Part shown: one piece after another, positions 4,224-54,284 of the stretch
Layout: each line of letters begins with the position of its first letter
Position numbering within the stretch: the stretch's first letter is position 1
Origin: Candidatus Zipacnadum vermilionense
GTDB taxonomy: Bacteria > Armatimonadota > Zipacnadia > Zipacnadales > Zipacnadaceae
NCBI GenBank assembly: GCA_029821755.1
Contig: JALGSV010000007.1
Coordinates: 186,001 to 250,000 of the forward strand
Direction: 5' to 3'
DNA: 64,000 nucleotides
Translations under genes and position numbers: made by a program
The notes under the pieces: generated by a model
The model's input: the letters and a program-made list of their open reading frames with translations, nothing else
Told to the model about the DNA's origin: nothing
The model's database searches: none

Positions 4224-4271
4224 GAGCCTCATCCCCGGCCCCCTCTCCTGGCAGGAGAGCGGAAAGCAGAG
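4224..4271 (+). repeat. Family A palindromic repeat, copy 1
   Basis: gagcctcatccccggccccc, then tctcctggcaggaga, then a degraded G-rich arm. It lies between convergent-side genes, upstream of the TIM-barrel stop. Confidence 0.7.
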
Positions 4272-5228: not shown

Positions 5229-5606
5229 AGGTGGGGCCTCCCGGCATGGGGGTTAGTGACCAAAGGAATTCGCCGGGGGGGAGCCGGAGTCCTGTCGGCG
5301 CGGCGGAAGGAAGGGCGAACTTACGGGGAGCGGCAGGCATCTACACTGGTATCGCAACGTGGAAGTATCGTGGTGATTGCGGGCAGTTCGCGCCGGGCGC
5401 CGAGCCTCACCCCCTGCCCCCTCTCCTTGCAGGAGAGGGGGAATGAAGAAAGGGGGTCTCGGAGAGGGGGAATCGGGCTTCGGGCTCCGTTCCCAAGGGT
5501 TGACGATTAGCGGAGGACTAGCAGAAAGTGCAGGGAACTCGCCAGGGGGCGATGTTGTCCTAGATATTCAGCGTTACCTAATCCCGTACGGGCAGGAGTC
5601 GATGAC
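5229..5606. other. Divergent intergenic region with one family A repeat
   Basis: 378 nt between divergent genes. It holds one family A palindrome (5402-5444). I see no convincing promoter with both hexamers and no coding frame with family support. A weak TTGTCC/CTAATC pair with 17-nt spacing lies at about 5555-5583, near the propeller start. Confidence 0.4.
5402..5444 (+). repeat. Family A palindromic repeat, copy 2
   Basis: Near-consensus copy: gagcctcaccccctgccccc, tctccttgcaggaga, gggggaatgaag. It is not next to a stop codon here. Confidence 0.8.
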
Positions 5607-6888: not shown

Positions 6889-6936
6889 GCCTCACCCCCC
6901 TGCCCCCCTCTCCCTCACGGGAGAGGGGGGGGAGAC
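6889..6936 (+). repeat. Family A palindromic repeat, copy 3
   Basis: gcctcaccccc...ctctccctcacgggagag then a run of G. The loop is variant (ccctcacggg). It is in tandem with copy 4, 8 nt away. Confidence 0.7.
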
Positions 6937-25652: not shown

Positions 25653-25704
25653 GGCCTCACCCCCTGCCCCCCGTCTATACACAGGGGAGGGGGGAGCAGA
25701 GCAG
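25653..25704 (+). repeat. Family A palindromic repeat, copy 7
   Basis: ggcctcaccccctgcccccc, gtctatacacagggga, ggggggagcagagcag. Begins 6 nt after the hydrolase stop. Confidence 0.75.
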
Positions 25705-30866: not shown

Positions 30867-30930
30867 GCCTCACCCGCTACCCCCTCTTGGGCGCGGACGC
30901 CCTTAGCAGGAGAGGGGGTAGCAGAGCAGC
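30865..30930 (+). repeat. Family A palindromic repeat, copy 9 (long loop), overlapping trpA stop
   Basis: gagcctcacccgctacccc, ctcttgggcgcggacgccct, tagcaggagag, ggggtagcagagcag. Its first two bases are the last two of the trpA TGA. Confidence 0.75.
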
Positions 30931-35437: not shown

Positions 35438-35499
35438 GAGCCTCACCCCCCTTCCCCTGGGCGCAGAGGCCGTCAGCGGGAGAGGGGGAACCAGAGCGG
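35438..35499 (+). repeat. Family A palindromic repeat, copy 10 (long loop)
   Basis: gagcctcaccccccttcccc, tgggcgcagaggccgtcagc, gggagagggggaaccagagc. Begins 1 nt after the polX stop. Confidence 0.75.
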
Positions 35500-37467: not shown

Positions 37468-37512
37468 AAGTCTCACCCCCCTCCCCCTCTCCTGGCAGGA
37501 GAGGAGGAGCTA
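37468..37512 (+). repeat. Family A palindromic repeat, copy 11
   Basis: gaagtctcacccccctcccc, ctctcctggcaggagag, gaggagc. Begins 4 nt after the preceding stop codon. Confidence 0.75.
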
Positions 37513-37580: not shown

Positions 37581-40100
37581 ATGTCCTCACGCCTCACGCC
37601 CCTGTCCCTGACCCGCTACTTCAACTCCCCCGCCTGCCTGCCCACCAAGCGCCGTAAGGGAGAGACAACTTGGGACCCGCGCGTCGCGGAGGTGCTCCCC
37701 CATCTCCCGCGCGGACAGCAGACCTTCTGGGGCCTCCCCTTCCGGCTGGGGCCGGCGGAGCTGGACCAGCCGGGCCTGGTGCTGCTGGCGCCGGGCCGGA
37801 AGGAGGTCCGCGTGCCGGTCAAGCAGACCGCCACCCACGTCTGCCTCCTGCACTTCTGCGACGTGACCAACGACGACGCTCAGCGTTCCGCCGGCGGGGA
37901 GGTGCTGGCGGAGTACGTCCTGGAGTACGCCGACGGTGAGACGCACACGGTCCCCATCCGGCGCCGCTTTGAGGTCAACCCCTTCACCGGCGAGTGGGGC
38001 ACCTACGCCTTCGCCGCGGCGAAGGCCCCCGAGCCGCGAGTACTAACCGAGGCGGATGCGACCTCGTTCAGCTGGGGCTGGCGGCAGACCGGAGCCACCA
38101 GCGGCGGCGGGCGCTTCCTGACCTGGGTCTACGCTCTGGAGAACCCGCGGCCGGAAGTGGCGATCGCTCGCGTGGTCCTGCGCGGCGCCGCGGCCGGCCC
38201 GGTCGCGGTGCTGGGCGTGACGCTGTATGAGGGACCGGGGCATCCGCTGCGCCATGTGCCGCGCAAGGTCTACCGGCTGGTCCTCCCCGCCGCGGAGAAG
38301 GCGACCGCCGACCAGGTGCAGGCGGAGCTGGACATGGGTGTGGTCACGCGGCTGTACGCGGCTCCCGCCCAGGTGGACGAGACCTGGCTCAAGGCGCCCG
38401 ACCGGGGTCTGGGGGAGAAGCGCGTGTCCAAGGCGGGGCGCGAGTTCCTCCTGGACGCCACTGGCGCCGAGGGGGCCACACTCAACGTGCAGGTGGCAGG
38501 CAAAGGCAAGCACGCGCTGGACTTCGGCGAGGCATACTCACGCGGCAAGACCACTGACGGCAAAGCGCGGATTGAGTTAGTCAACCCGCGCACCTCCTGG
38601 GTGCATGTTACGGTGGTGGATAAGTCCACGGGCCAGCCGACGGCGACGCGGGCGCACTTCCGGGGCAAGTTCGGCGACTACCTCGCCCCCTACGGCCACC
38701 ACTGGGAGGTCAACGACCAGTGGTTTGAGGATTACGCCGGCGATCTGCAACTGGGCGGGCAGCCGTTTGCCTACGTGCCCGGGTCGTTCCAGATCGAACT
38801 GCCGGTGGGCGAATGCTACGTCGAACTTAACAAGGGCTTCGAGTACAAGCCGGTGCGGCGGAAGCTGGTGATCAAGCCGGGGCAGCGGGAGCTACGGCTG
38901 ACGGTCGATCGGGGCGCGGACTGGCGCCAGGAGGGCTGGGTCACCGCCGACACCCACGTCCACTTCATCAGCCCCCAGACCGCGGCGCTGGAGGGGAAGG
39001 CCGAGGGGCTCAACCTGATTAACTTGCTCGCCTCCCAGTGGGGGCGGCTCTACACCAATGTGGCCGACATCACGGGGGAGGCTTCGGGTTGCTCGGACGA
39101 GGAGACTCTGGTCTGGGTGGGCACCGAGAACCGTCACCACCTACTGGGGCATATCTCCATGCTGGGTACCCACGGCGACCCGGTGTTCCCCATGTGTTCT
39201 GGCGGGGTCGATGAGGCCTATATCGGCGACCCGGAGCTCCGGGCGCTGACGGAATGGGCCCGCGAGTGCAAAGCGAAGGACGGCGTGGTCATCCGGCCGC
39301 ATTTCCCCTCGCCGATCTGCGAGGAGCCAGCCTACTTCATGTTGGGGCAGCTAGATGGGGCGGAGTTGCGCCAGTTCGCCGATCCCGCGGCCGGCCCGCT
39401 GGAGGTCTTTCAGTTCTCCGAGTGGTACCGCTACCTCAACTGCGGCTGCAGGGTGGCGGCGGTCGGCGGCACGGATAAGATGAGCGCGGGGATGCCGGTG
39501 GGCGGCGTGCGCACTTATGCCCGGCTGGGAAAGAACGAGCCCTTCAGCTTCGAGAACTGGGGCCAGGCGGTCCGCGCCGGGCGCACTTTCACCACCTCCG
39601 GCCCGCTGATTGACCTGACCGTGGACGGCAAGCCGATTGGATCCGAGATCAAGATGAAGGCTAGGGGGGGGGAGGTGGAGATCGCGGCGAGCGCGCAGTG
39701 CCAGTGGCCGATCCACGCGCTGGAGGTAGTCGTCAACGGACAAGTTGTCGCGGATACTCGCAAGGCTAAGGGCGCACACAGCCTAAGTCTGCGGCAGAAG
39801 GTGCGCCTAGAGGGCAGCGCTTGGATCGCCGCCCGCTGCGGGAGCAGGCTGCAGGTGAATCACTGCTGGCCGATGCACCTGGGCGCGCACACCTCTCCGG
39901 TCTATGTCGTCGCTGGCGGCCAGGAGTTGTGGAGTCCCAGCGACGCGACCTACATGCTCACGCTGCTCGACGGCGGGATGACGTATCTGGATACGCTGTC
40001 GGTACGCTACAGCGAGAAGCGGCACCAGGCGATCAAGAAGGTGTACGAGGAGGCGAAGGGGGAGATACGGCGGAGAGGGCAGGGGAGCCTCACCCCCTAG
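37581..40100 (+). CDS. CehA/McbA-family metallohydrolase (PHP domain)
   Basis: 839 residues, without a signal peptide, from ATG 37581 (AAGGAGG upstream). N-terminal beta domains of about 450 residues (PWGV-like strands, then a carboxypeptidase-regulatory-like fold with TVVDKSTGQPTATRAHF) precede the PHP metal-hydrolase core: GWVTADTHVHFI with His at about 458 and 460, NRHHLLGHISMLG, VIRPHFPSP and VAAVGGTDKMSAG with the final Asp. CehA and McbA hydrolyse carbaryl-type esters, but most family members have unknown substrates. The final residues GSLTP and the TAG stop are encoded by the first part of a family A repeat, so the ancestral C-terminus was probably a little shorter or different. Confidence 0.82.
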   Translation: MSSRLTPLSLTRYFNSPACLPTKRRKGETTWDPRVAEVLPHLPRGQQTFWGLPFRLGPAELDQPGLVLLAPGRKEVRVPVKQTATHVCLLHFCDVTNDDAQRSAGGEVLAEYVLEYADGETHTVPIRRRFEVNPFTGEWGTYAFAAAKAPEPRVLTEADATSFSWGWRQTGATSGGGRFLTWVYALENPRPEVAIARVVLRGAAAGPVAVLGVTLYEGPGHPLRHVPRKVYRLVLPAAEKATADQVQAELDMGVVTRLYAAPAQVDETWLKAPDRGLGEKRVSKAGREFLLDATGAEGATLNVQVAGKGKHALDFGEAYSRGKTTDGKARIELVNPRTSWVHVTVVDKSTGQPTATRAHFRGKFGDYLAPYGHHWEVNDQWFEDYAGDLQLGGQPFAYVPGSFQIELPVGECYVELNKGFEYKPVRRKLVIKPGQRELRLTVDRGADWRQEGWVTADTHVHFISPQTAALEGKAEGLNLINLLASQWGRLYTNVADITGEASGCSDEETLVWVGTENRHHLLGHISMLGTHGDPVFPMCSGGVDEAYIGDPELRALTEWARECKAKDGVVIRPHFPSPICEEPAYFMLGQLDGAELRQFADPAAGPLEVFQFSEWYRYLNCGCRVAAVGGTDKMSAGMPVGGVRTYARLGKNEPFSFENWGQAVRAGRTFTTSGPLIDLTVDGKPIGSEIKMKARGGEVEIAASAQCQWPIHALEVVVNGQVVADTRKAKGAHSLSLRQKVRLEGSAWIAARCGSRLQVNHCWPMHLGAHTSPVYVVAGGQELWSPSDATYMLTLLDGGMTYLDTLSVRYSEKRHQAIKKVYEEAKGEIRRRGQGSLTP

Positions 40101-40130
40101 TCCCCTCTCCTGGCAGGAGAGGGGGAATTG
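40085..40130 (+). repeat. Family A palindromic repeat, copy 12, containing a stop codon
   Basis: gagcctcaccccctagtccc, ctctcctggcaggagag, ggggaattgg. It overlaps the last 16 nt of the metallohydrolase gene and supplies its TAG. Confidence 0.8.
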
Positions 40131-44722: not shown

Positions 44723-45055
44723 ATGCCGGATACGGCCCCCCAGCCGCAGGAAGGTCGCGTGAAGGTCTACGGCACCAATGACCCCGTAGCTGCGTCGTTC
44801 CTGGTAGCGCTCCTGGAGGACCAGGGGATCCCCGCTCTGCAGTTGACCCGTCCCGACGTCTACTTTGGCGCCGGGGGGATGTGGTATCCCGAGGCCTACC
44901 AGGTACTAGTCCGCGAAAGCGAAGCCGAGAGCCGACGGGAGGATATCGAGGCGGCGATAGCGGAGGTGGAGGGTGCCGAGCCTCACCCCCTGGCCCCTCC
45001 CTGTGCACGCGGGCGTGCGCAAGCAGGGGAGGAGGAATCAGAGGAGCGACCATAG
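44723..45055 (+). CDS. DUF2007-like putative signal-transducing protein
   Basis: 110 residues from ATG 44723. The core (residues about 11-80: VKVYGTNDPVAASFLVALLEDQGIP, then YQVLVRESEAESRREDIEAAI) matches the small DUF2007 ferredoxin-like domain found alone or as a fusion in many bacteria. The final 26 residues (AEPHPLAPPCARGRAQAGEE onward) are translated from a family A repeat that begins at 44978, so the natural end is probably near residue 85. Function unknown. GGGGAG precedes the start. Confidence 0.6.
   Translation: MPDTAPQPQEGRVKVYGTNDPVAASFLVALLEDQGIPALQLTRPDVYFGAGGMWYPEAYQVLVRESEAESRREDIEAAIAEVEGAEPHPLAPPCARGRAQAGEEESEERP
44978..45044 (+). repeat. Family A palindromic repeat, copy 13, inside a coding 3' end
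   Basis: gagcctcaccccctggcccc, tccctgtgcacgcgggcgtg, cgcaagcaggggagg, aggaatcagagg. It is translated as the C-terminal tail of the DUF2007-like protein. Confidence 0.75.
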
Positions 45056-50685: not shown

Positions 50686-52326
50686 ATGCCTCAGATCAAG
50701 CTCGCCTTGCTCAGTGTCTCCGATAAGACCGGTCTCGTCGGTTTTGCCCGCGGCTTGCGGGAGAGGGGGGTGAGGATACTCTCCACCGGCGGCACCAAGC
50801 GCGCCCTGGAGGAGGCCGGGATCGAGGTAACCGCTGTCGAAGACTACACCGGCTTCCCCGAGATGATGGAGGGCCGCGTCAAGACCCTGCACCCCAAGGT
50901 CCACGGTGGCCTGCTGGCGCGGCGGGACATCCCCGAGCACCAGGCCCAGGCGGCGGCCCATGGGATCGAGATGATTGACCTGGTCTGCGTCAACCTCTAC
51001 CCCTTCCGCCAGACCGTCGCCAAGCCCGACGTCACCTTGGAGGAAGCGGTGGAGAATATCGACATCGGCGGGCCGACCATGCTGCGCTCGGCGGCCAAGA
51101 ACTTCGCCGCCGTCGCCGTCATCTGCAATCCGGCGCGGTACGACACCATCCTGGAGGAGATGCGCGCCTCGGGCGGGGAGGTCTCCGCGGAGACCCGGCG
51201 GCAACTGGCCCTGGAGGTCTTCGCCCATACCGGGCAGTATGACGCGGCCATCGCCATGTGGCTGTCGCAGGCGTTCGCCGCTGAGGAGAGTCAGTTCCCC
51301 GGCTACTTCGCGCCGTGGTACGTCAAGCAGGGCAGCGACCTGCGGTACGGGGAGAACCCGCACCAGTCGGCGGTGCTGTATGCGCAGGTGGACGCGCCGG
51401 AGCCGGGGCTGGCCCAGGCGGTCAAGCTGCACGGCGAGCGGGAGCTGTCCTTCAACAACTACCTGGACCTGACGGCGGCACTGGAGACCGCCCGGGACTT
51501 CGCCGAGCCTACGGCGATCGTCATCAAACACCTCACCCCCTGTGGCGCGGCCACCGCGGCGACGCTGCAGGAGGCCTTCGTGGACGCCTGGTCGGTCGAC
51601 CCCATCTCCGCCTTCGGTGGAGTCATCGGCCTCAACCGCGTGGTGGACGCCGAGACCGCGCGGATACTGGGCAGCGGCAACTTCCTCAAGGAAACCATCA
51701 TCCCGCGCTACCGCGAGGAGTCTGGGGATACCGAGACCAACATCATCAGCGCCTTCGTCGAGGCGATCATCGCCCCCGGCTACGAGCCGGAGGCCCTGGA
51801 GTTGCTCAAGCGGCGCAAGAACCTGCGAGTGATGCTGCTGGAGGATTTCTGCCCGGAGGGCCGCCGGCGAGACCTGGACCTGAAGAAGATCCCTGGCGGC
51901 CTGGTGGTGCAGAGCCCGGACCTGGACTTCGTGACGGAGGCGGACCTGCAGGTAGTGACGAAGAAGGCGCCCACCCCGGACCAGATCGCCTCGCTGCTCT
52001 TCGCCGACCGTATCGCCAAGCACGTGAAGAGCAACGCCATCGTGCTGGTGCAGGGCACGCGGCTGGTAGGCTGCGGGGCGGGGCAGATGAGCCGCTTCGA
52101 CTCCTGCGTCATCGCCGCCCGCAAGGCCGGCCGGCGCGCGCTGGGCGCTTGCCTGGCTTCGGACGCCATGTTCCCGGCCCGCGACGGCCTCGACGCGGCG
52201 GCGGCTACCGGGGCGGTGGCGATCCTGCAACCGGGCGGGTCCAAGGCCGACGAGGAGGTCATCGCGGCGGCGGATGAGCACGGCATCGCGATGGTGTTCA
52301 GCGGGATGCGGCACTTCTGGCACTGA
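50686..52326 (+). CDS. purH: Bifunctional phosphoribosylaminoimidazolecarboxamide formyltransferase/IMP cyclohydrolase
   Basis: 546 residues from ATG 50686 (GGAGGA 7 nt upstream). It performs the last two steps of IMP synthesis. The IMP cyclohydrolase domain comes first: LLSVSDKTGLVGFARGL, GGTKRALEEAGI, TLHPKVHGGLLARRD and VNLYPF. The AICAR transformylase domain has Lys281-His282 in KHLTPCG (KHxNPCG in most homologues), ISAFGGVIGLNR, SNAIVL, GAGQMSRFDS and SDAMFPARDGLD. It ends with a TGA, then family A repeat copy 14. Confidence 0.96.
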   Translation: MPQIKLALLSVSDKTGLVGFARGLRERGVRILSTGGTKRALEEAGIEVTAVEDYTGFPEMMEGRVKTLHPKVHGGLLARRDIPEHQAQAAAHGIEMIDLVCVNLYPFRQTVAKPDVTLEEAVENIDIGGPTMLRSAAKNFAAVAVICNPARYDTILEEMRASGGEVSAETRRQLALEVFAHTGQYDAAIAMWLSQAFAAEESQFPGYFAPWYVKQGSDLRYGENPHQSAVLYAQVDAPEPGLAQAVKLHGERELSFNNYLDLTAALETARDFAEPTAIVIKHLTPCGAATAATLQEAFVDAWSVDPISAFGGVIGLNRVVDAETARILGSGNFLKETIIPRYREESGDTETNIISAFVEAIIAPGYEPEALELLKRRKNLRVMLLEDFCPEGRRRDLDLKKIPGGLVVQSPDLDFVTEADLQVVTKKAPTPDQIASLLFADRIAKHVKSNAIVLVQGTRLVGCGAGQMSRFDSCVIAARKAGRRALGACLASDAMFPARDGLDAAAATGAVAILQPGGSKADEEVIAAADEHGIAMVFSGMRHFWH

Positions 52327-52329
52327 GGG

Positions 52330-52371
52330 GAGCCTCACCCCCTGCCCCCTCCCCTGGCAGGGGAGGGGGAA
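52330..52371 (+). repeat. Family A palindromic repeat, copy 14 (left arm of DUF559 unit)
   Basis: gagcctcaccccctgccccc, tcccctggcagggga, gggggaa. It begins 4 nt after purH and is 2 nt before the DUF559 ATG. It matches the reverse complement of copy 15 at 41 of 42 positions. Confidence 0.9.
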
Positions 52372-52373
52372 CA

Positions 52374-52838
52374 ATGAAAGGGAGAACGAGGAGGAAAAGG
52401 ATGTCCGGCAGTGCGCGGTCGGGCGACGAACGGGAGGGGGAGAGAGTCTACCGGTCTCAACCATTGGAGCGCCTGGTGGAGGGTGTCGCGACGGATGACA
52501 AGATCACGTTCGCGCGCGAGCAACGGCGCGAGGGCAGCGATCCGGAGAAGACGCTTTGGGAATGCCTGCGAGGCAAGAAACAGGGCTTCAAGTTTCGACG
52601 GCAGCACCCGCTCGACGATTTCGTCCTGGACTTCTTCTGCCATGAGGTGAGGTTGGCGATAGAGGTAGATGGCGGGCACCACGCGGACCAGGAGACATAT
52701 GATCAGTGGCGTGACGAGAGATTGGCGGCGATGGGCATCGCTACGTTGAGGATTCCTGCGCACGAGGTTGAGTCAGATCTCTTCGGTGTGCTCAGGGCCA
52801 TCCGCGCGGCCTGCCAAGCCCGCATGGAAAGGCAGTAG
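52374..52838 (+). CDS. DUF559 restriction-endonuclease-like protein (Vsr superfamily)
   Basis: 154 residues. The first 50 are charged and unusual. The nuclease core (about 55-150) has LWECLRGKKQGFKFRRQHPL with Glu63, then FVLDFFCHEVRLAIEVDGGHH: Asp86, Glu97 and Asp99 fit the D...E-x-D/K-type active site of the DUF559 (PF04480) family, which belongs to the Vsr/very-short-patch-repair-like endonucleases. ATLRIPAHEVESDLFGVL closes the fold. It lies between two inverted family A copies (41 of 42 positions identical), directly between purH and glyA. Its Shine-Dalgarno is the G-rich end of the left copy. Role unknown; a repeat-mobilising nuclease is a plausible inference. Confidence 0.85.
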   Translation: MKGRTRRKRMSGSARSGDEREGERVYRSQPLERLVEGVATDDKITFAREQRREGSDPEKTLWECLRGKKQGFKFRRQHPLDDFVLDFFCHEVRLAIEVDGGHHADQETYDQWRDERLAAMGIATLRIPAHEVESDLFGVLRAIRAACQARMERQ

Positions 52839-52878
52839 TCGGGTTTGCCAGGCCCGTATTCCTCCTTCTCTCTGTTTG

Positions 52879-52922
52879 TTCCCCCTCCCCTGCCAGGGGA
52901 GGGGGCAGGGGGTGGGGCTCGG
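52879..52922 (-). repeat. Family A palindromic repeat, copy 15, inverted (right arm of DUF559 unit)
   Basis: ttccccctcccctgccaggg, gagggggcagggggtggggc, tcgg: the reverse complement of copy 14 at 41 of 42 positions. It lies 40 nt after the DUF559 stop and is the only well-conserved reverse copy. Confidence 0.9.
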
Positions 52923-53033: not shown

Positions 53034-54284
53034 ATGGTAAATCGCACTCTCGCGCAAGCTGATTCGCAGATTGCGCAGATCCTGGCCAAGGAAACCGAGC
53101 GCCAGGAGAAGACGCTGATGCTGATTCCCTCGGAGAACTACGCTAGCCGCGCCGTCATGGCGGCTTGCGGCTCCGTGTTCACCAACAAGTACGCTGAGGG
53201 CTACCCCGGCAAGCGCTACTACAATGGGTGCCAGTACTACGACGAGCTGGAGCAGGTCGCCATCGACCGCGCCAAGGCTCTGTTCAAGTGCGACCACGCC
53301 AACGTGCAACTGCACACGGGCTCGCAGGCGAACATGGCGGCGTACTATGCGATGCTCAAACCCGGTGACAAGATCATGGCCATGAGCGTCGCCCAGGGGG
53401 GGCATCTGACCCATGGGGCGTCGGTCAACTTCTCCGGGCAGATGTACGAGTCGCATTTCTACGGCCTGGACCCGGACACCGATCAACTCAATTACGAGCA
53501 GATCCGGCAGATGGCCATGGAGGTGCGGCCGCGGCTGGTTATCTGCGGCGCGAGCGCCTATCCGCGCGTCATCGACTTCCGCATCTTCAAGGACATTGCC
53601 GACGAGTGCGGGGCCTACCTGATGGCCGACATCGCCCACATCTGCGGGCTGGTGGCGGCGGAGGTGCACCCTACCCCGGTGCCCTTCAGCGACATCGTGA
53701 CCTCGACGACGCACAAGACCCTGCGCGGGCCGCGCGGAGCGCTGATGCTGTGCAAGGAGCAATGGGCGGGGAAGGTGGACCGGGCGGTGTTCCCCGGCGT
53801 GCAGGCCGGGCCGCTGATGCACATCGTGGCGGGCAAGGCGGTGGCCTTCAAGGAAGCTGGCGAGTTCGGCTTCCGCGAGTACCAGCGCCAGATCGTCCGC
53901 AACGCCCACGCCCTGGCCAAGACGCTGCTGGACGAGGGGTTCACTCTGGTGACGGGAGGGACGGACAACCACCTGCTGCTGGTGGACCTGCGCAATAAGG
54001 GCATCACCGGCGCGGAGGCGGCGGACAGGATGGAAGTGGCGGGGATGGTGGTTAACAAGAACCTCATCCCCAACGACCCGACGCCCCCGGCGGTGACCAG
54101 CGGCATTCGCCCCGGCACCCCCGGGCTGACTACGCGGGGCATGAAGGAACCGGAGATGGCCCTGGTCGGCAGGTGGATCGCGCGGGTCATCCACGAGGGG
54201 AAGAGCAATCCGCAGGTGCTAGACAAAGTGCGGGGCGAGGTAGAGGAGCTCTGCGCGGCGTTCCCGATCTATCTGGACCTGTAG
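53034..54284 (+). CDS. glyA: Serine hydroxymethyltransferase
   Basis: 416 residues, full length. It interconverts serine and glycine with tetrahydrofolate, supplying one-carbon units (to purH among others). Motifs: LMLIPSENYASRAVMAA, NKYAEGYPGKRYYNGC, NVQLHTGSQANMAAY, GGHLTHG, ICGASAYPRVIDF, DIAHICGLVA and TSTTHKTLRGPRG with Lys228 as the PLP lysine, then RIVSNHLLLVDL-type C-domain NHLLLVDLRNKGITG and RPGTPGLTTRGM. Start ATG 53034 with AAAGG 11 nt upstream. No glycine riboswitch is visible upstream. Confidence 0.97.
   Translation: MVNRTLAQADSQIAQILAKETERQEKTLMLIPSENYASRAVMAACGSVFTNKYAEGYPGKRYYNGCQYYDELEQVAIDRAKALFKCDHANVQLHTGSQANMAAYYAMLKPGDKIMAMSVAQGGHLTHGASVNFSGQMYESHFYGLDPDTDQLNYEQIRQMAMEVRPRLVICGASAYPRVIDFRIFKDIADECGAYLMADIAHICGLVAAEVHPTPVPFSDIVTSTTHKTLRGPRGALMLCKEQWAGKVDRAVFPGVQAGPLMHIVAGKAVAFKEAGEFGFREYQRQIVRNAHALAKTLLDEGFTLVTGGTDNHLLLVDLRNKGITGAEAADRMEVAGMVVNKNLIPNDPTPPAVTSGIRPGTPGLTTRGMKEPEMALVGRWIARVIHEGKSNPQVLDKVRGEVEELCAAFPIYLDL

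Follow-up and report, generated by a model that had tools for sequence, protein, structure and literature searches.

A DUF559 gene between inverted copies of a repeat

The window analysed here, a stretch of 64,000 nucleotides from the 4.39-Mb draft genome of Candidatus Zipacnadum vermilionense, contains a DUF559 nuclease gene between purH, which ends with the stop codon TGA at 52324-52326, and glyA, which starts at 53034. The gene is enclosed by inverted copies of a repeat, family A, that occurs elsewhere in the same DNA, raising the question of whether the nuclease spreads the repeat or settled among copies that were spread otherwise. To our knowledge, DUF559 is a very widespread family with no agreed function. 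A preliminary description of the window proposed a repeat mobiliser with the layout of RAYTs and their REPs and an endonuclease from another superfamily. Our computational tests support that proposal through repeat-flanked stand-alone genes, cross-phyla controls, gene-less copies, empty sites, and the abundance of the repeat in 41 relatives.

In the best explanation, the whole unit is an autonomous miniature element of 591 bp at 52330-52920. Its left terminal inverted repeat (TIR; 52330..52392, plus strand, ~63 bp) starts 3 nt past the purH stop codon, and its right TIR occupies 52860..52920 on the minus strand (~61 bp). Without gaps, the inverted pair comprises 52330-52383 and 52867-52920, 54 nt with 91% complementarity, which gapped alignment lengthens to the full TIRs (locus L004). 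The near-perfect inverted family A pair that had been described around the gene is real, with a 42-nt core that is identical at 41 of its positions, the single difference being CCTCACC versus CCCCACC, and an enclosed ORF of family PF04480. At ≤3 mismatches the core 40-mer is found at only these two places in the window, with 0 expected from 100 shuffles; chance pairing of the repeats is excluded by these shuffles, by shifted intervals, and by other genes in the same loci. The DUF559 gene (52374..52838, plus strand, 154 amino acids) has its ATG inside the left TIR and an alternative in-frame start at 52401. Two further readings were rejected: no Rfam family came close to its gathering score, as a structured RNA would require, and PADLOC gave only weak matches to defence systems.

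The encoded protein resembles Vsr-like nucleases

The ORF matches DUF559 (PF04480) with an E-value of 2e-27 and 95.4 bits, against a curated cut-off of 20.6, and thus qualifies for membership of the Pfam family. Residues D86, E97, D99, H103, and R75-R76-Q77 are invariant in the alignments. An AlphaFold model of the protein (pLDDT 83.5) matches best to 3hrl and to 3r3p, the catalytic domain of I-Bth0305I, and more weakly to Vsr (1vsr), and profile searches agree with the fold (3hrl, E 1e-32; I-Bth0305I, E 5e-5). The modelled Vsr-like α/β core, with its conserved acidic and histidine residues, meets the definition of a YcjD/Vsr-like nuclease of the PD-(D/E)XK or EDxHD type, with catalysis inferred. 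YcjD was earlier assigned to the PD-(D/E)XK superfamily, with a YcjD profile that detected Vsr at an e-value of 1e-5 (PMC1189080), and a DUF559 gene was previously placed in the EDxHD family (PMC9403480).

Among characterised nucleases, I-Bth0305I (EDxHD; PDB 3r3p; PMC3943268) is the closest by both profile and fold. It is tied to a group I intron, whereas the DUF559 units are small, have inverted repeats at their boundaries, and lack both an intron and extended DNA-binding arms. The structure 3hrl, NGO0050 of Neisseria gonorrhoeae, is a solved DUF559-type structure that was deposited as putative endonuclease-like with unknown function. The Vsr mismatch endonuclease shares its fold superfamily with YcjD/DUF559, but DUF559 genes are instead flanked by repeats, and no cytosine methyltransferase partner of the Vsr type was present among the annotated neighbours examined, without a systematic neighbourhood scan. 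In Caulobacter, an SOS response of a methyltransferase mutant depends entirely on the DUF559 protein VsrA, for which a role as mismatch-repair endonuclease was proposed (PMC12907096). These data are compatible with a nuclease that is active in vivo, yet would give it a different role.

The repeat matches the BoxC/PIT triplex motif

Judged by motif, and with folding not shown for the copies in the window, both ends of the unit carry the class-I intrastrand-triplex motif known under the names BoxC, PIT, and TM. This motif is defined by a pyrimidine arm (Y), a purine arm (R), and a third strand that mirrors R with A or T opposite A, present in many copies, and both ends fit the definition. The right copy (52881..52917, plus strand) reads CCCCCTCCCC (Y) TGCCA GGGGAGGGGG (R) CA GGGGGTGGGG (third strand). 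Its pyrimidine arm is followed by the complementary purines and then by another run of purines, which mirrors R with T replacing A. The left copy (52333..52369, minus strand) has Y at 52360-52369, a loop at 52355-52359, R at 52345-52354, a spacer at 52343-52344, and the third strand at 52333-52342; a strict scan with a 7-nt core places it at 52336-52369. The preliminary description had recognised the repeat but neither its identity as a BoxC/PIT intrastrand-triplex motif nor its generality.

Solo family A copies on the plus strand of the window include one at 5405..5441 with the typical form CCTCACCCCCTG CCCCCTCTCC TTGCA GGAGAGGGGG, others at 4227..4263, 25655..25693, and 37471..37508, two with a longer loop at 30868..30917 and 44981..45032, and a diverged copy at 35441..35486. 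Two solo triplex motifs related to family A lie on the minus strand, at 6890..6926 and 40088..40122. Although the single orientation previously noted for family A holds inside the window, it does not hold genome-wide, where the family A tag at ≤2 mismatches occurs 136 times, 71 forward and 65 reverse, and a reversed-pattern control only twice (1 and 1). The stems of family A carry compensatory changes between T-A and C-G (p = 1e-5) while the tag remains constant; variant copies were too few to assess covariation of the third strand with the stem.

The E. coli motif has been shown to fold as a triplex in vitro, in a study that found BoxC/PIT/TM repeats associated with neither transposons nor phages nor plasmids (Holder et al, 2015; PMC4666352). 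That paper mentions neither DUF559 nor YcjD. The published repeats and those in the window share the order Y-loop-R-spacer-third strand, a G/C-rich composition, multiple copies, and inverted dimers (PMC4666352). The difference is that the DUF559 loci tie the repeats to a nuclease gene, as the ends of an element.

Gene and repeat are associated in the genome, the order, and across phyla

DUF559 matches number seven in this genome, and three of them are intact stand-alone genes, the one in the window and two others (C1 and C21). All three are flanked by inverted copies of a repeat whose sequence variant is particular to each gene; the inverted repeats measure 63 nt (92%) at C1 and 45 nt (84%) at C21. 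Therefore, the inverted pair in the window is not the only one, as had been supposed, while the suggested search for other DUF559 genes near the repeat succeeded for every intact stand-alone gene. The exceptions are degenerate or fused: on C61, a 367-aa ORF contains two domains and a long ORF contains another, and C62 has a 102-aa fragment.

On the 20-kb contig C61 (loci L003, L005, and L007), the several degenerate DUF559 domains within longer ORFs have family A copies nearby. The catalytic ExDG motif is apparently gone from these domains, and the elements have possibly decayed or been absorbed.

Most stand-alone DUF559 genes in the window's order are repeat-flanked. Across 41 relatives, the repeat is commoner where a stand-alone DUF559 gene is present (median 8 versus 0 copies, p = 9e-4, not corrected for phylogeny). 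Abundant family A in relatives without DUF559 had been named as a finding that would refute the mobiliser, and it was met in part: G036 has 43 copies and no DUF559 gene was found in it, although this draft is 87% complete and DUF559 is present in its congeners. A second exception to the correlation, G010, has 10 copies. Three genomes with DUF559 (G018, G030, and G035) lack the tag variant that was searched, and other variants flank at least some of their genes.

DUF559 loci were taken from the 41 relatives, and 80 loci were taken from genomes of many phyla, among them Alphaproteobacteria, Chloroflexi, Cyanobacteria, Bacteroidota, Cloacimonadota, and Acidobacteria. Because these 80 loci are the best matches to a single query alignment, the frequencies given here are not a census, and some of the control genes may be mispredicted ORFs. 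Matching upstream and downstream flanks were found for 43/72 testable DUF559 genes compared with 6/222 neighbouring genes in these loci (OR 53, p = 9e-26), and for 1.6% of 1234 shifted intervals. A strict triplex scan, which demanded 7 nt in all three strands with zero mismatches at ≤350 bp from the gene, detected the motif on at least one side of the gene in 63/80 DUF559 loci and 17/214 control genes (OR 43, p = 2e-32). The motif was present on both sides in 36/80 DUF559 loci, and 17/80 had none within this distance. Its density is 1.9-2.2 per kb near the DUF559 gene and 0.00-0.10 per kb far from it. By set, the strict scan was positive for 20/24 loci in the window's order and 8/10 in a plasmid and E. 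coli set.

The flanks of many DUF559 genes are direct or composite instead of simple inverted pairs. A universal geometry in which the tag always faces outward was rejected, because a regular-expression count across all loci showed no clear bias and the alphaproteobacterial type is oriented opposite to the type in the window; tag orientation is uniform only within one repeat type. Two Sinorhizobium loci (L199 and L200) have composite inverted pairs of BoxC-like repeats, similar to REPINs, on both sides of DUF559, with an inverted score of 104 for L200. In Neisseria gonorrhoeae (L203:2811-3537), two direct copies of ~113 bp, which include a G/C hairpin, enclose the DUF559 gene, and recombination between these copies could delete it.

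Ends are matched to each gene and occur in gene-less units

Within one DUF559 locus the two flanks have a median similarity of 46.5, compared with 14.4 between DUF559 loci of the same genome (p = 7e-5). Between genomes, repeat similarity follows protein similarity (Mantel rho 0.28, p = 0.003), in part confounded by kinship. As far as sequence comparison can tell, flanks matched per gene are the pattern expected for a gene with its own ends.

The alphaproteobacterial end core GAGGGGGACC-N-GGTGGAGGGG occurs in 2-147 copies in each of 15 genomes with a DUF559 locus, and its reversed control never occurs; five other genomes contain zero copies of this core. In four Brevundimonas genomes, neighbouring end copies <700 bp apart form 31 inward-facing pairs, compared with one outward-facing and three direct pairs. 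The gap between inward-facing ends is 24-71 nt in 26/31 pairs, mostly 29-34 nt, and 384-465 nt in the remaining 5/31, all five of which contain a DUF559 ORF. The 15 short units that were retrieved have the same ends as the long units, typically ATCCTCCCC...GGGGAGGAT, and nine gene-less units measured in B. huaxiensis are 128-163 bp long. Judged from these shared ends, the long form resembles an autonomous element, and the short form the corresponding MITE. Like MITEs and insertion sequences, the DUF559 units have autonomous and gene-less forms bounded by TIRs, and the requirement of defined TIRs is met by the unit in the window and by the gene-bearing and gene-less Brevundimonas units. In the DUF559 units, by contrast, neither a recombinase of the DDE, HUH, serine, or tyrosine type nor a clear target duplication was seen; no duplication was evident at the boundaries inspected in Brevundimonas. 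Certain mobile elements have no target-site duplications. One gene-less B. huaxiensis unit (G046:C3:128000-129080, L225) apparently lies within an rsmB-like coding region, in its 3′ part.

Related genomes contain empty sites

An insertion should leave relatives in which the flanks are joined without the unit, and such empty sites were found for Brevundimonas, Sphingomonas, and Sphingobium. The MITE at the hisF/hisI junction of B. huaxiensis is absent from five relatives that align over the joined flanks at 73-77%, and the 3.3 kb examined in the same five contain zero triplex motifs. In S. parapaucimobilis and Sphingomonas GM_Shp_1, pntAA is separated from pntAB by a DUF559 unit of ~450 bp, and a third genome has no DUF559 unit at this site and only 36 nt between the aligned flank blocks. 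A Sphingobium unit in an mcc operon is missing, along with its repeats, in two relatives, at a site with a duplicated flank. In Sphingobium RAC03 (L197:2722-3565), the DUF559 unit lies between two diverged copies of the end of the neighbouring carboxyltransferase gene, which suggests that the flank was duplicated at or after insertion.

For the purH-glyA site, where empty sites in relatives had been proposed as a check, 12 syntenic relatives from other genera have neither gene nor repeat; their intergenic regions are too diverged to be aligned, so insertion at this site remains unproven. At the queF flank of the B. huaxiensis module the right flank alone aligns, with no motif in the 3.3 kb examined in 5/6 relatives. 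Azospirillum plasmids were rejected as a source of empty sites because the same site is occupied in all strains found. Insertion directly 3′ of stop codons, as at purH, pntAA, and hisF, may reflect either target choice or selection.

A leader-like sequence, GGGCGGTTGCGGTACGCGCCCC, is conserved upstream of glyA in several families of the window's order (loci L124, L128, L129, L133, L136, L141, and L143), and is absent from the window. Within the loci searched, no Rfam family matches it at the gathering threshold, and it is a candidate for an unlisted leader RNA.

The main rival to a mobile unit is homing into pre-existing repeats, in which the repeats spread by other means and serve as landing pads: a free-standing DUF559 nuclease cuts within them and its gene is copied in by repair. 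The nearest characterised relative is indeed a homing endonuclease, I-Bth0305I, many loci are composite arrays with direct copies, and repeats far exceed genes, with 136 copies and three intact stand-alone genes in this genome. However, the empty sites, albeit from few genera only, are free of both gene and repeats, which argues against the repeats being a homing target. Homing also does not account for the two flanks of one gene matching each other far better than they match the flanks of DUF559 genes elsewhere in that genome, for TIR similarity that runs inward past the common repeat, or for gene-less dimers that share ends at a mostly fixed spacing of ~30 nt. We therefore regard homing as a doubtful explanation.

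A proposed miniature mobile element

We consider it likely that 52330-52920 is an autonomous, IS-like miniature mobile element whose sole protein, a Vsr/EDxHD-type nuclease, acts on triplex or hairpin ends, with cutting, binding, and joining all inferred. The observations beneath this proposal are the association across phyla, the ends matched per gene, the gene-bearing and gene-less units that share ends, and the empty sites; in this purely computational analysis no transposition, cutting, or binding was observed. In this process, the ends would become single-stranded or be extruded, at replication forks or by supercoiling, and fold as a hairpin or triplex. The nuclease could then recognise the folded shape together with its own sequence variant and make its cut in the ends or next to them. 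Once freed or copied, the unit would be joined to a new site, often directly after a stop codon. Joining would probably depend on host repair, because the enzyme lacks tyrosine/HUH or DDE chemistry and the unit encodes no strand-transfer chemistry. Solo and paired copies elsewhere would be non-autonomous derivatives, related to the element as REPs and REPINs are to RAYTs or MITEs to IS elements.

The unit works like a RAYT/REP system but is not a member of that group. RAYT/REP (REPtron) and TIRYT/TIR systems are also small single-gene units between palindromic repeats, and the repeats next to RAYTs likewise occur as monomers, dimers, or TIRs (PMC3733652; PMC2817692). In both cases the gene has its own repeat variant and there are abundant solo or paired gene-less copies, the features on which the comparison rests. 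RAYTs, though, are HUH tyrosine transposases of the IS200/IS605 type, in contrast to the PD-(D/E)XK/EDxHD nuclease of the DUF559 family found here. Instead of a GTAG tag 5′ of the hairpin, the DUF559 units have the tag CCTCACCCC or GGTGGAGGGG, with no GTAG/CGTC, and this tag is the third strand of the triplex motif.

The ends might also be moved in trans by an unlinked HUH, DDE, or other transposase, with DUF559 as a carried gene for a function such as repair or stability. This would fit the fact that neither a target-site duplication nor a known transposase chemistry was identified for the unit, and the proposed mismatch-repair role of the Caulobacter protein (PMC12907096). It seems improbable to us, as it would need the same passenger family in many phyla, the repeat sequence follows the DUF559 sequence, and RAYTs are reported with GTAG repeats or unrelated TIRs and not with the BoxC/PIT type (Di Nocera et al, 2013; PMC3733652). 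We give very little credence to the absence of any mobility link, with gene and repeat both gathering in tolerant intergenic sites or the nuclease maintaining triplex-forming sites, for instance at stalled forks, so that adjoining genes are retained: in E. coli the repeats are tied to genome instability (Holder et al, 2015; PMC4666352) and Vsr-like nucleases have repair roles, but the pattern is rare for other genes in the same loci, the matched ends, fixed-spacing inward pairs, and shared termini of gene-bearing and gene-less units are left unexplained, and the element/MITE structure weighs heavily against it.

Since the pairing recurs in many phyla beside BoxC/PIT repeats, which have long lacked an explanation, gene and repeats together have the appearance of a new type of very small mobile element. 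No published link between DUF559 and triplex repeats was found in the open-access literature, a search that left out preprints and most subscription journals. Therefore, the element is categorically new only in the sense that no known kind of mobile element pairing a DUF559-type nuclease with triplex-motif ends was found in that literature. Beyond the single unit, we lean somewhat towards DUF559 being a new class of transposition nuclease with triplex-folded ends as its substrate, and towards DUF559 proteins, with ancestors such as YcjD, having created the BoxC/PIT repeats and spread them across bacterial phyla. With such a link, the repeats and the protein family would each gain an explanation that can be tested, and the list of enzymes behind mobile DNA would gain a nuclease in which no transposase chemistry is known. 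Were the enzyme to recognise DNA in its triplex-folded form, it would count among the rare biological readers of this structure.

The repeat beside ycjD in Escherichia coli

The DUF559 gene of E. coli, ycjD, adjoins a published BoxC copy, entry 9 of Table 1 in Holder et al (1 351 239-1 351 204), and has the repeat on a single side only. In approximately 3334/5426 E. coli genomes, ≥80% of the fabI-ycjD region (fabI-ycjD-sapF in MG1655, L146; also L209, L210, and L281) is matched. No clean empty site for ycjD was obtained in E. coli, where strains without ycjD, such as A24, have an efflux operon instead; in A24 this operon lies between fabI and sapF, and ycjD is unannotated there. A length difference at L212 was rejected as an empty site because it looks like a deletion between repeat halves. 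The E. coli repeat 42-mer is present in 5377/5426 E. coli genomes, at a median of 13 places, and agrees with the Holder consensus CCCTCNCCC-N-GGGNGAGGG-N-GGGNGAGGG.
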